Shown here: positions 32,913 through 40,150 of the stretch, piece by piece
How the letters are laid out: every line of letters begins with the position of its first letter
How positions within the stretch are numbered: position 1 is the first letter of the stretch
DNA from: Elainella sp. Prado103
GTDB lineage: Bacteria; Cyanobacteriota; Cyanobacteriia; Elainellales; Elainellaceae
Reading direction: 5' to 3'
Length of the DNA stretch: 40,559 bases
NCBI GenBank assembly: GCA_025454395.1
Contig: JALOOM010000036.1
Location: 1 to 40,559 of the forward strand
Notes under the pieces: generated by a model
The model's database searches: none
Seen by the model: only the letters and a program-made list of their open reading frames with translations
Told to the model about the DNA's origin: nothing
Position numbers and translations under genes: made by a program

Positions 32913-33578
32913 CTACTGATCTTCTGACGACTCTGAGGGTGAAAATGCACCGAGTTGCCCTGGTAGAGGCTGGCCAATTTGCCTCAAATTGATGGCATAT
33001 CCTGCTGTCACCAAGTAAACCGCATCAGCGATCTGGCCAATCTTGCGAGTTGCTTGCCCTAATCGATCGCGGAACAATCGTCCTGATGGATAGGCAGGCA
33101 CCACCCCCCAACCTGTTTCCTCGGAGACAATAATGATCTGAGACTGGCGATGTTGGAGCTGATGGAGGAGTTGATTGAGGATCTGTTGCCAGTCTGATTC
33201 ACTTTGATCCAATAAATTTGCCAACCAGGTGCCAAGGGAGTCAATTAACCAGCAGTCTGGAGCAGGGACTGAGTTGAACACTACAGCTAAATCGATCGGT
33301 ACATGTAGGGTTTGCCAAGTGGAGGGACGACGTTGCTGATGCTGGAGAATCCGCGCCTGCCATTCCGGATCGTCAGGGTTAGTTTGGGCAGTCGCAACAT
33401 AGGTAACCGAAGGGTGACCCGTAACCGAAGGGTGACCCGTAACCGAAGGGTGACCTGTGACTGATGGCTGGTCTGTAATCAGGGGCTTGCCTAGATGAGA
33501 TTGCGCTGCCAGATATTCTGCCCATTCACTTTTGCCCGATCGGGCTGGGCCAGTAACCAAAATCAGCGGAGGTGTCAC
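32913..33578 (-). CDS. cobU: Adenosylcobinamide kinase/guanylyltransferase CobU
   Basis: A 221-residue protein with the P-loop GPARSGKS at 10-17, VTYVATA, the WLIDSLGTWLANLL block and VSEETGWGVVPAYPSGRLFRD with its catalytic neighbourhood. CobU phosphorylates adenosylcobinamide and attaches GMP in late cobalamin assembly. Between the P-loop helix and the strand SVTYVATA lies an insertion of SVTGHP units made by an 18-bp tandem repeat, which enlarges the protein by about 24 residues. Whether the loop tolerates it is unknown; the core motifs are intact. No other cobalamin gene is in the window. Confidence 0.93.
   Translation of the reverse strand: MTPPLILVTGPARSGKSEWAEYLAAQSHLGKPLITDQPSVTGHPSVTGHPSVTGHPSVTYVATAQTNPDDPEWQARILQHQQRRPSTWQTLHVPIDLAVVFNSVPAPDCWLIDSLGTWLANLLDQSESDWQQILNQLLHQLQHRQSQIIIVSEETGWGVVPAYPSGRLFRDRLGQATRKIGQIADAVYLVTAGYAINLRQIGQPLPGQLGAFSPSESSEDQ
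33403..33474. repeat. 18-bp tandem repeat inside cobU
   Basis: Three copies of GTAACCGAAGGGTGACCC (last base changed in the third) and a diverged fourth copy encode SVTGHP units. The repeat duplicates the start of the conserved strand VTYVAT, so it arose by expansion at that point of the gene. Confidence 0.95.
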
Positions 33579-34291
33579 AGTCTGAAAGTATCACAGTCTG
33601 AAAGGGGATGCAGATATCCTAACAGACCCGCATCTTTATCAGCTTGACCTGACCTGACCTTGCAACCCTGATTGCCTGATTGACTGACAAATCTTTTCCC
33701 CTCATCCCTAAATCCCTTCTCCCACTAGGGGCGAAGGGACTTCCCATCAAATCCTGGTTTGAAAGCCCCTCGCCCGCTCTGGGAGAGGGGTTGGGGTGTC
33801 GCTTGCTTCTGCGTAGCAGTGGGTAGTTTGAGTTTTGTCAGTCAATCAGCCTTGCAACCTCAATCGAGATTATCGAGATTAAGGTCACTTTGCCAATACG
33901 TCACCAAAAGTCACAATTAGAACGAAGAATTTATCGTAAAAGCAACTAGAATATGCAAATTGAGATTATTGTTGGGAAAAATTAGACAAAATTTAGATTC
34001 TGATGCTTGCAAGTAAGTTATGTAGACGATAGGGCAGGAGTTACTTTCTGCTTTCCTCTCTTCTCTTTCCTACCTGGGAGGGATGCTCAGATTGAGGATC
34101 TGTTCGAGTGATTGTGAAGCGATTGTAACTAGGTATAACCAGACATTCCAGTTTGGCTCAGTGACTGGATACTGATCAATTTTGAGTAGCAATCTCTTCA
34201 GAATTTTGCTAGCGTTCTACTTGGTGTTCTACCCGACATTTTCACCGGCGACAGTGTAGACTCGCAATCCTTGCTAGGGAATGAGGCTGTT
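33579..34291. other. Intergenic region with MITE
   Basis: A divergent promoter region between cobU (minus) and the gene at 34292 (plus). The left part carries a short CTGACC duplication and the MITE-like element at 33676-33849. The right 440 bases contain no recognised gene or RNA. Confidence 0.5.
33676..33849. mobile_element. 174-bp MITE-like element with perfect 16-bp terminal inverted repeats
   Basis: The ends CTGATTGACTGACAAA and TTTGTCAGTCAATCAG are exact reverse complements. The interior is also an imperfect inverted repeat (CCCTTCTCCCA near the left, TGGGAGAGGGG near the right), so the whole can fold into a long hairpin. It has no coding capacity. CCTTGCAACC lies at 33658-33667 on the left, eight bases before the terminal repeat, and again directly after the right end at 33850-33859, a possible target duplication. 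A 76-bp piece of the same element recurs at 37766-37841. Confidence 0.85.
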
Positions 34292-35284
34292 ATGAAATCA
34301 GGACTAAAGCGCATTGAGGCAACGCTTGATCAACTGCGTCCACAGGACGAAAAAGCAGGAGTGATGGAGTCGGGTACTCAGGAACCAGATTCTTCAGATC
34401 CGAAAGCACCCTCTCGCCCAGTCTCCTCTAAGAGCAGCTTAGAAAAAAAAGAGATTGAGAAAAAGGATCTTGCAGGAAAACCTGCTAAAACAATTCAGCC
34501 TTTTCCCATCCCCAAAACTCCACCGATCGCCACATCATCCACCGCTCAATCCCAGATAACTCCAGCGCTGGTGAGCCCCTCTCAGTCCACTTCAGGCTCT
34601 CCTTCCCCTGCAACCGCAGCGATCGGTCGCGCCCAGCCTCTAGCGGCAGCGCAGCCTCGCCCATCTGGAATGCGGTTGGCAGATGTTGCCCCCGATCTGG
34701 CATCCGATCCTTCTTTCCCGTCCGTTCCAGTTGCTCAATCTTTGGCGCTACCGAAATCGAAGCCGCCCAGTTTCAGTAAGCACCGTCATGCGGTCAATCC
34801 CGAGCTGGCGATTGGGTTGCTGAAGGAGATCGAAACGGTTGTGGTGAATTGGCAACTCAGCTTAGAGCAAACGGTACTGGAAATTCAGGCGCTTTACCTG
34901 GACGGCCCGATCGTCGATGGCTGGTTGGAGTCACATCCCTATGGCTCACCGCAGGTGATGCAGCCGATCGGCACTGCTACCCTCCGTCATGCTGAGATTG
35001 ATCGATTAATGGATTATGTCGAAGAAATCTGCCGGGTTCCGCCTGCTCCTGAAACCGGCGAGCTACCCCGCACCGGCTATCGGCTCTGTGGGTTAGATGC
35101 CGATGGTCAGCTTTGGTCTCGCCCTTGTCCAGCGCAGCAGGTTCCCTATGTTAGCTTAGCGATCGCTCGATATCAGAAACTGCGAATTCTGCTGGCCAAA
35201 AAGCAAGCTCTGGAAAATCGCTTAAATCAACTCATCCAGAACCTGACCCGCCTCCACGGGCAAATTCAAGAGCCGCTATGCTAA
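34292..35284 (+). CDS. Conserved cyanobacterial protein, disordered N-terminus and helical C-terminus
   Basis: About 330 residues from the ATG at 34292 (MKSGLKRIEATLDQLRPQD); a TTG at 34271 would add seven. Residues 1-170 are rich in Pro, Ser, Ala and Lys and look disordered. The C-terminal half is ordered: NPELAIGLLKEIETVVVNWQ, LEIQALYLDGPIVDGWLE, RLMDYVEEICRVPP, GYRLCGLDADGQLWSRPCP, and a final helix (RYQKLRILLAKKQALENRL) with coiled-coil character. I recognise no family function. The stop codon lies within a 16-bp tandem repeat, and moaE follows 59 bases later. Confidence 0.75.
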   Translation: MKSGLKRIEATLDQLRPQDEKAGVMESGTQEPDSSDPKAPSRPVSSKSSLEKKEIEKKDLAGKPAKTIQPFPIPKTPPIATSSTAQSQITPALVSPSQSTSGSPSPATAAIGRAQPLAAAQPRPSGMRLADVAPDLASDPSFPSVPVAQSLALPKSKPPSFSKHRHAVNPELAIGLLKEIETVVVNWQLSLEQTVLEIQALYLDGPIVDGWLESHPYGSPQVMQPIGTATLRHAEIDRLMDYVEEICRVPPAPETGELPRTGYRLCGLDADGQLWSRPCPAQQVPYVSLAIARYQKLRILLAKKQALENRLNQLIQNLTRLHGQIQEPLC

Positions 35285-37765: not shown

Positions 37766-37841
37766 CCGCTCTGGGAGAGGGGTTGGGGTGTCGCTTGCTT
37801 CTGCGTAGCAGTGGCTAGTTTGAGTTTTGTCAGTCAATCAG
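37766..37841. mobile_element. Truncated copy (right 76 bp) of the MITE-like element
   Basis: These 76 bases match 33774-33849 with only one difference (GGCTAG for GGGTAG), including the terminal TTTGTCAGTCAATCAG. The left 98 bases of the element are missing. The near identity implies recent spread or gene conversion between the copies, which lie 4 kb apart. Confidence 0.9.
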
Positions 37842-37843
37842 GA

Positions 37844-38098
37844 GCGAACCTGAGCGGAGCACATTGGATAGAGACAAATTGAGGACGAGCCAACTGCCAT
37901 GCTGCTAATTTAAGCAGAGCGATCGTCCACTGCGCTTCTCTCAACGGGGTTAATCTGAGTGCAGCAAATTTGAATGCAGCTAACTTAACAGAAACCAGTC
38001 TGAGCCGAGCTAAGTTGGCTGGAGCAAAACTGACTTTAGCCGTGCTGCAAGGGGAAAATTTGAAGGGCGTAGATCTGCCGCAGCCCTACTTGCTGTAA
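37844..38098 (+). pseudogene. Pentapeptide-repeat protein remnant
   Basis: Reading from GCG at 37844 gives ANLSG, AHWIE, TN-stop-GR, ANCHA, ANLSR, AIVHC, ASLNG, VNLSA, ANLNA, ANLTE, TSLSR, AKLAG, AKLTL, AVLQG, ENLKG, VDL and a TAA at 38096-38098. The five-residue A(N/D)LxX rhythm stays in register across a TGA at 37880-37882, which sits at the position of the core Leu, a one-base change from TTA. There is no start codon. The 5' end is lost exactly where the MITE fragment ends. Pentapeptide proteins form right-handed beta-helices; this copy cannot make one whole. Confidence 0.8.
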
Positions 38099-38110
38099 GG
38101 ATAACTCAGC

Positions 38111-40150
38111 TCAAGAAGCGAGTTCTGCTAATTCTAGCCAGCGCTCTGTATTCAGTTCGATCGATCGTTCTAGTTCTGCTAGCCGCTCGGTTAGCTTTTG
38201 CATTTCAGAAAAGTTTTGAGTCGAATTCTCGTAGAGTCTTTTTTCGATTTCTTGTTTTTCTTGCTCTAGCTCCGGAATCTGATTTTCTAACTGTTCCAAC
38301 TCTCGTTTTTCCTTGTAGGAAAGTTTGCGAGGTTTATTATTAGCAGTAACTTTTGCAGTTACCTCTGAGTTAACATCAGCGTTGGTGTTATTAGTCGTTT
38401 TATTGTTAGGCTGGCTATTCTGAGACTGGCTATTCTGAGACTGGCTATTCTGAGACTGGCTATTCTGAGACTGACTATTCTGAGACTGACCATTCTGAGA
38501 CTGACTGTCACCTCGCGTTGCTTTCTGATCGGTTGGTGCTGTGGTAGTTTGCTGGTACTCTAAATACACCGAATAGTTGCCAGGGTACTGCCGAATCTTG
38601 CCACCTGGTTCCAGGGCAAAAATGGTCTCTACTGTGCGATCGAGAAAATAGCGATCGTGCGAAACCACAATAACGCAGCCGTTGAAATCTTCTAGATACT
38701 CTTCCAGTACCGCCAGTGTTTGCACATCAAGATCGTTTGTGGGTTCGTCTAGAATTAGCACATTGGGCGCACTCATGAGCACCCGCAGCAGGAAGAGCCG
38801 CCGTTTTTCACCCCCTGATAGTTTGTGAATGGGAGCATATTGCTGATTGGGTGGAAACAAGAAGCGCTCCAGCATTTGTGAAGCAGTAATCACCGAGCCA
38901 TCTGCCGTTTTCACCAGCTCGGCCACATCCTTGAGGTATTCAATCACCCGTTGATTGGGGTTTAGCATCAGATCATCGGAATGCTGATCAAAATAGCCAA
39001 TCTGGATCGTGCTGCCAATTTCCACCGTGCCGCGATCGGGCTGAACTTTCCCCGTGATGATATTCATCAACGTCGTTTTACCTGCACCATTGCCGCCAAT
39101 AATCCCAACCCGATCCTCTGGGTTGAACTCGTAGGTAAAATCCTGGATGAGTGTGCGATCTTCGTAGGACTTGGTGATACCGTTTAGCTCGATCACCTTT
39201 TTGCCGATCCGCCGTCCTGCCGTGGCGATTTCCACCTTGCCCTGGGTCTGCCGGAATTCCTTGGTCTGCATGTCATGGATGCGATCGATCCGGGCTTTCT
39301 GCTTGGTACTGCGAGCTTTTGGGCCACGCTTGAGCCATTCCAATTCCCGACGTAGCACCCCCCGATGTTTGCGCTGTGAGCTGGCTTCCGCCTCTTCGGC
39401 TAACGCTTTCTTTTCCAGATAGTAAGAATAATTGCCATCGAAGCTGTACAGTTCGCCCCGATCCAGCTCCAGGATGCGATTGGTGACGCGATCGAGAAAA
39501 TAGCGATCATGGGTAATCAGCAGTAGGGCTCCGCGATACCGATTCAGATAATTCTGTAACCATTCCACCGACAGGGCATCCAGATGGTTGGTCGGCTCAT
39601 CCATCAGTAACACATCTGGCTCAGACAGTAAGGCCGTCGCCAAAGCAATCCGTTTGCGGTAGCCACCTGACAGATCGCCCACCCGAACGCTAAAATCTTC
39701 GATCCCCAGCATCGACAGGACAATCTTGGCCTGGGTTTCGAGTTCCCAAGCAGCCAATGCATCCATCTGCTGGGTGATCTGAGACAGACGTGCCATCAAC
39801 TGATCGTGATTGCCGACTCCGTGGGCTAGCTGATCTGAAATTTCCTCATACTGCCGCACCAATCTCATCCGATCGCCACTATCGGCAAACACCTGTTCCA
39901 GGACGGTGCGATTTTCATCGACTTCTGGCTGTTGAGGCAAATAAACAATCCGCACGCCAGAATTCACTAAGCGCTCTCCAGCATCGATCGGTTCTAGCCC
40001 GGCAATCATTTTCAGCAGCGTCGATTTGCCTGATCCATTCGTGCCAATCAATCCGACCTTATCGGTTGAACCCAGGCTGAAATTCGCGTCTTTGAGGATT
40101 TCTTTAATGCCAAAATCCTTTTTTACTCCCTGTAGTGTAAAGATGCTCAT
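38111..40150 (-). CDS. uup: ABC-F protein, Uup type
   Basis: A 679-residue soluble protein with two ABC cassettes. Cassette 1 has Walker A GTNGSGKST, signature LSGGYRKR and Walker B LLMDEPTNHLD. Cassette 2 has GGNGAGKTT, LSGGEKRR and LILDEPTNDLD. A charged linker between them (RKHRGVLRRELEWLKRGPKA) and a C-terminal coiled coil (KRELEQLENQIPELEQEKQE) mark the Uup branch. ABC-F proteins act on ribosomes or branched DNA, not in transport. The segment before the coiled coil is expanded by a 15-bp tandem repeat encoding NSQSQ units, then an Asn/Thr-rich stretch. It ends 12 bases from the pentapeptide remnant. Confidence 0.95.
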   Translation of the reverse strand: MSIFTLQGVKKDFGIKEILKDANFSLGSTDKVGLIGTNGSGKSTLLKMIAGLEPIDAGERLVNSGVRIVYLPQQPEVDENRTVLEQVFADSGDRMRLVRQYEEISDQLAHGVGNHDQLMARLSQITQQMDALAAWELETQAKIVLSMLGIEDFSVRVGDLSGGYRKRIALATALLSEPDVLLMDEPTNHLDALSVEWLQNYLNRYRGALLLITHDRYFLDRVTNRILELDRGELYSFDGNYSYYLEKKALAEEAEASSQRKHRGVLRRELEWLKRGPKARSTKQKARIDRIHDMQTKEFRQTQGKVEIATAGRRIGKKVIELNGITKSYEDRTLIQDFTYEFNPEDRVGIIGGNGAGKTTLMNIITGKVQPDRGTVEIGSTIQIGYFDQHSDDLMLNPNQRVIEYLKDVAELVKTADGSVITASQMLERFLFPPNQQYAPIHKLSGGEKRRLFLLRVLMSAPNVLILDEPTNDLDVQTLAVLEEYLEDFNGCVIVVSHDRYFLDRTVETIFALEPGGKIRQYPGNYSVYLEYQQTTTAPTDQKATRGDSQSQNGQSQNSQSQNSQSQNSQSQNSQSQNSQPNNKTTNNTNADVNSEVTAKVTANNKPRKLSYKEKRELEQLENQIPELEQEKQEIEKRLYENSTQNFSEMQKLTERLAELERSIELNTERWLELAELAS
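38411..38500. repeat. 15-bp tandem repeat in the Uup linker
   Basis: Six copies of CTGGCTATTCTGAGA (the last two with one or two changes) encode NSQSQ units just before the C-terminal coiled coil. The length is a multiple of three, so copy number is free to vary. Confidence 0.95.

Follow-up and report, generated by a model that had tools for sequence, protein, structure and literature searches.

A MITE abundant in the cyanobacterium Elainella sp. Prado103 shares its ends with an IS4-type insertion sequence of relatives

A repeat and its probable mover

A 174-bp element of Elainella sp. Prado103 is a MITE: it is short, has inverted ends and no gene, occurs in many dispersed copies with individual target duplications, and shares its ends with an autonomous element. 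From sequence comparison, we put at about 0.93 the probability that these ends belong to an IS4-type insertion sequence (IS) family whose transposase moved the copies, which would name the probable mover of an abundant repeat. The window, the whole 40,559-nucleotide stretch that we analysed, holds one long copy of the element and one truncated copy, with the following features.

33676 to 33849, plus strand: the MITE in its long form, 174 bp, defined by genome matches, inverted ends and a census of target duplications
33676 to 33691, plus strand: left terminal inverted repeat, 16 bp and perfect, CTGATTGACTGACAAA, the same end as on IS4-type elements
33834 to 33849, minus strand: right terminal inverted repeat, 16 bp and perfect, TTTGTCAGTCAATCAG, the exact reverse complement of CTGATTGACTGACAAA
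33658 to 33667, no strand: left copy of the target duplication CCTTGCAACC, a direct repeat flanking the element
33850 to 33859, no strand: right copy of the same direct repeat CCTTGCAACC
33667 to 33674, plus strand: an extra CCTGATTG, unit 1 of an 8-bp tandem duplication of the left end, read from the sequence (unit 2 is 33675 to 33682)
33699 to 33798, no strand: palindromic core, common to elements with other ends
33799 to 33821, no strand: insert of net 21 bp that sets the 174-bp form apart from a 153-bp form, from comparison of copies
37766 to 37841, plus strand: truncated copy, the right 76 bp of the element with the right end intact and one base different

An earlier note on this DNA had described a non-autonomous element with exact reverse-complement termini and a self-complementary interior, and both descriptions held. 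The termini match over the full 16 bp, the arms are 95% complementary over 19 bp, and positions 33660-33865, folded as single-stranded DNA, reached -45.4 kcal/mol, compared with -24.9 (sd 3.4) in shuffled sequences (z -6.1; none of 200 shuffles was as good). The CCTTGCAACC repeat was likewise confirmed on both sides of the element. The eight extra bases on the left do resemble the terminal repeat, as had been noted; more exactly, they repeat the end perfectly in tandem, so that CCTGATTG is present twice. The element is overlapped by no open reading frame of 80 aa or longer, and lies between a cobU-like gene on the minus strand (32913-33578; Pfam CobU) and an open frame at 34271-35284 without a Pfam match. 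Rfam at gathering thresholds gave no match anywhere in the window. The cobU-like gene carries an in-frame tandem repeat of GHPSVT units (33400-33460) near the predicted CobU start, and this repeat region adjoins the intergenic region that bears the MITE.

Doubled ends occur elsewhere in the genome. At C26:91631-91663 (L042), MITE ends are duplicated in tandem without a full element, and at C26:32694 (L023) they are also duplicated in tandem; together with the window copy, these loci suggest that the ends are prone to short tandem duplication. L042, considered as a transposase locus, was rejected, as it holds a doubled end and no transposase.

Dispersed copies carry individual target duplications

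The genome of Elainella sp. Prado103 (5.84 Mb in 157 contigs) bore out the expectation that further copies exist. A DNA search yielded at least 46 matches to the element, comprising at least 40 long ones, a lower bound because 40 of 147 first-look candidates were scored, and at least 6 short ones to a hairpin. The 16-bp end was found at 185 places with no more than 2 mismatches, versus 0 for a reversed control. A census of 101 own-genome loci (L001-L060, L139 and L359-L398), which covers part of these 185 ends, resolved 58 distinct elements with both ends when each end was required to match at 10 or more of 13 letters, the two together at 21 or more of 26, and their spacing to be 80-350 bp. 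All were 108-329 bp long, with 21 of 174 bp, 4 of 173 bp and 5 of 153 bp. Allowing duplication lengths of 8-11 bp, we recognised a target duplication in 51 of the 58 elements, 36 of them perfect; the best length was 9 bp in 29, 10 bp in 19, 11 bp in 2 and 8 bp in 1. When the right flanks were shuffled 300 times, duplications averaged 1.08, with a maximum of 5. The family has therefore spread by transposition and not by segmental duplication. The window copy is among the seven elements counted without a duplication, because the 8-bp repeat displaces its CCTTGCAACC pair. An initial census with less strict ends (77 rows, 29 duplications at a fixed 9 bp) had mispaired ends and was replaced by the stricter one.

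When the element was removed in silico from 26 of the first 30 copies (four were left out), no frame of 120 aa or longer was restored except one of 120 aa (L009), and the tested copies thus lie between genes. Among 100 listed end places, 20 were within 100 bp of a contig end; in practice, the MITE repeat breaks assemblies. Plasmid and phage collections contained no match to the element.

The earlier note had also proposed recent activity or conversion, on the ground that the 76-bp piece differs from the long copy by one base. That difference is real and falls at position 33823, positions 37766-37841 being otherwise identical to 33774-33849. For the family as a whole, 'recent' is too strong: pairwise comparison of 22 copies, each 174 bp long, gave a mean of 12 differing bases (range 2-26). 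A search for an exact empty site in four genomes of the same genus, which the note had advised, found none. Three of the four keep the flanking blocks without the element, but the intergenic difference exceeds the element itself: in G001, the genome of Elainella saxicola E1, 161 bp separate two conserved blocks that lie 666 bp apart in the window.

An IS4-type insertion sequence in relatives has the same ends

The MITE's ends also border an IS4-type insertion sequence in relatives, mostly 1.29-1.33 kb in length. The copy in Microcoleus sp. FACHB-1515 (L145; G023:C59) spans 1287 bp, has the ends CTGGTTGACTGACAAAACTC and CTTTTGTCAGTCAATCAG, is flanked by the duplication GAGTCTGGTC and contains one intact transposase gene of 394 aa. 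Its protein had a match at E 1e-20 or better in 50 of 114 genomes, own genome included, and among 30 fetched transposase loci 21 had both ends at 13 or more of 17 letters, 1287-1334 bp apart. In a scan of named genomes, 100 relatives were found and 80 kept, of which the 46 near-full-length ones were analysed, the remaining 34 being mostly partial matches or close to a contig end. Both ends (10 or more of 13 letters) were present at 40 of these 46 loci, compared with 0 for three permuted motifs, and half of the 40 had a duplication of 9-10 bp. Carriers among the named genomes are nearly all cyanobacteria; both ends are also present in an Anaerolineae MAG (L251) and in Methylocucumis oryzae (L303). 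In the congener E. saxicola E1, the transposase had at least 16 matches.

IS4-family elements encode a DDE transposase with a Y-2-R-3-E-6-K signature and generate target duplications of about 9 bp or more. The 12 transposases compared have the signature spacing; all 12 keep D, D, Y, R and E, and 9 keep K, with Q in the other 3. As in the IS4 family, the first five residues are conserved and K mostly so. The 9-10-bp duplications of the partner IS fall within the family's length range. The closest intact partner transposase scores below the curated cut-off of that model, which is nevertheless its best NCBIfam match (IS4_2, NF033591; 135.1 bits versus 152). With Pfam DDE_Tnp_1, L145 scored 22.3 against a cut-off of 23, and another locus, L121, scored 42.5. 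The MITE resembles IS4-family insertion sequences (NF033591) in its ends and its 9-10-bp duplication, and differs from them in having no gene and a core that is not IS sequence.

A transposase of this IS4-type family would recognise ends of the form CTGRTTGACTGACAAA and transfer the short element to a new site, where repair of a staggered cut would leave the 9-10-bp duplication. What we observed are the ends, the duplications, the genes for a transposase that lie in relatives within matching ends and similar duplications, and, in this genome, a fragment of such a gene next to a MITE-type end. The scheme would add to them the IS4-type family as the mover of these particular copies and the chemistry, which is that of the IS4 family. 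The core between the ends is an acquired palindromic repeat and not part of the IS.

The probable partner persists as a relic in the same genome

The window contains no transposase with these ends, in agreement with the earlier note; ends at no more than 3 mismatches belong there only to the two copies. The search that the note had advised, for a transposase with matching ends, turned up genes in relatives; the MITE's own genome yielded only a broken piece beside a MITE-type end. This relic (C50:19502-19786) is 58% identical to residues 296-391 of the L145 transposase and contains two stops; a 16-bp end starts 13 bp behind it, and the terminal 22 bp (TTGAGTTTTGTCAGTCAATCAG) match the right end of the MITE exactly. 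Contig C63 has two weak, divergent transposase pieces (42-45%), and a scan of these loci gave no pair of ends. A search with the L145 protein did not find an intact partner transposase in this genome. Since the assembly is broken at the MITE repeat, an intact IS copy could be missing from it. The copies are probably stranded without their mother IS, unless an intact copy sits in an assembly gap, and would then exemplify MITEs that survive in a genome longer than the IS that gave rise to them.

Two other accounts of the copies' origin compete with mobilisation by the IS4-type family. Another transposase could have been the mover, for example that of an IS4_3-type element on contig C153, whose gene, an open frame 425 aa long (IS4_3 score 363.2, cut-off 160), adjoins core-like sequence and one MITE-type end. 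The C153 element was at first taken for the mother IS because of that end to its right. It was rejected in this role, as its borders are a different inverted repeat, CTGTGTACACACAAGT (read by eye), and the IS4_2-type relatives carry the MITE ends directly; we therefore regard a different mover as very unlikely. Less credible still is an origin of the copies in segmental duplication or gene conversion instead of transposition. Given their near-identity 4 kb apart, conversion between the window copy and the 76-bp piece is conceivable, but at the level of the family the flanks, checked for sharing as the earlier note had advised, proved individual, each with its own direct repeat in 51 of 58 elements, which refutes segmental duplication. 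Mobilisation by the IS4-type family remains our preferred reading.

Two further observations concern transposase loci. The C153 element (L062, about 620-2172) is bracketed by inverted core-like sequence, with the MITE-type end lying to its right. A transposase match on contig C38 was rejected as a partner, having no such ends.

A palindromic core lies within several unrelated sets of ends

The core has outer arms CCCTCATCCC and GGGGTG(AGGG) and two hairpins, at about 33713-33739 and 33766-33790. Some match to the element was present in 45 of 60 genomes searched, own included, and often covered only the core. For comparison we fetched 40 further places from seven genomes, 39 for the core and one (L335) that was rejected as a core copy because it contains no core and matches cobU instead. 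In G041, the ends GGCAACAATATACTT and AAGTATATTAATGCC surround the core in one family (9 copies, 8 with an 8-bp duplication), and GAGTGCATCCCA and TGGGATGCTCTC surround it in a second (2 copies, duplication 8-9 bp). In G052 the core is enclosed by AGGCGATGTGCAACTT and AAGTTGCACATCGCCT, recognised at 5 of 6 places with no clear duplications, and in G011 by GGGCACT... and ...AGTGCCC (2 copies, 6 bp repeated); in G043 it is free-standing and in tandem. The reverse arrangement also exists, as other interiors lie within the same IS4-type ends with clean duplications at L134 (10 of 10) and at L144, L148 and L141 (9 of 9 each). At L128, L134, L144 and L148 (G038, G015, G018 and G020), the IS4-type ends surround a palindromic interior of the GTAGGTTGGGT / ACCCAAC kind.

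An alignment of 19 cores from 11 genomes, own included, showed arms that align and a variable middle. Nearest-neighbour comparison, in which end types were labelled by eye, clustered the cores of the own genome with those of G014, G016, G042 and G040, all with CTG-type ends (one label is doubtful); this suggests one old capture of the core. The G037 cores, which also have CTG ends, are closest, after other cores of G037 itself, to a free core of G043, suggesting another, separate capture. Four or more sets of ends, differing in duplication length, enclose the same double hairpin (about 100 bp), which in another genome is free or in tandem and which other palindromes replace within the same IS4-type ends. 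The core may accordingly be an independent cargo module, exchanged among transposon families that are not related, an idea that we offer tentatively and consider somewhat less probable than its opposite. If it is true, many cyanobacterial MITEs would be interchangeable composites of ends and hairpin, and the hairpin would be favoured at the birth of new MITEs. The shared core in any case offers a handle on the origin of MITE interiors other than those left by deletion within an IS.

A hairpin with a role of its own could also account for the element's retention, as a transcription terminator or mRNA stabiliser that is no longer mainly mobile. In keeping with this, 12 core cells in the alignment were changed on both sides of the two-hairpin structure with pairing kept, compared with 4.1 (sd 1.5) in shuffled alignments (0 of 500 as high), and the copies tested lie between genes. 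However, pairs showing such a change (3 versus 1.9 in shuffles; 67 of 500) are not exceptionally many, further pair types (9) fall below the shuffles (10.7), and an alternative fold, with the two halves of the core on each other, also fits, with 96.5% of cells paired. Intergenic placement is equally expected from selection against gene disruption. Retention for a hairpin function is thus unlikely in our judgement, although less so than the two accounts of origin considered above. As judged from the aligned sequences, the core is a conserved palindrome, and we do not extend this claim to one structure.

Relation to known repeats

As a kind, the element is already known; its mosaic interior is worth following. 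The MITEs of Anabaena sp. 90 (PMC3542288) are likewise short, with inverted ends and many copies mostly between genes; they were classed as type II because that genome yielded no IS bearing their ends. For the present MITE, by contrast, the partner was identified in relatives. Type II MITEs without a partner IS in the same genome, such as those in PMC3542288, may be of the present kind. Nezha, a cyanobacterial MITE, is reportedly of the same general kind (short, inverted ends, many copies, mostly between genes). A literature search by end sequences, by core sequences and by the topic of mosaic MITEs, with most subscription papers and ISfinder outside its scope, found no report of this repeat.

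The insert and the truncated copy

The signature of the 21-bp insert is present in 37 of the 58 own-genome elements, and the genome holds 67 occurrences of its sequence at no more than 2 mismatches; most of these places adjoin one of the ends listed (compared by eye). The second G041 family and G052 have similar inserts at the same core position. Elhai et al. 2008 reportedly described very small mobile repeats of cyanobacteria; the insert is of similar size and likewise lies inside a larger repeat. At L329 (G041:C42), a second small insert, like the 21-bp one, is located at the other rim of the core.

The 76-bp piece is probably an insertion whose left part has since been lost. The nine bases to its right, GAGCGAACC, have no second copy on its left side. 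Directly to the right of the truncated copy, a pentapeptide-repeat-like frame on the plus strand (37842-38110) contains an internal stop, as read by eye, and is probably a pseudogene. It is followed on the minus strand (38111-40150) by an ABC-F-like protein in which a run of SQN/NSQ repeats precedes the C-terminal domain.
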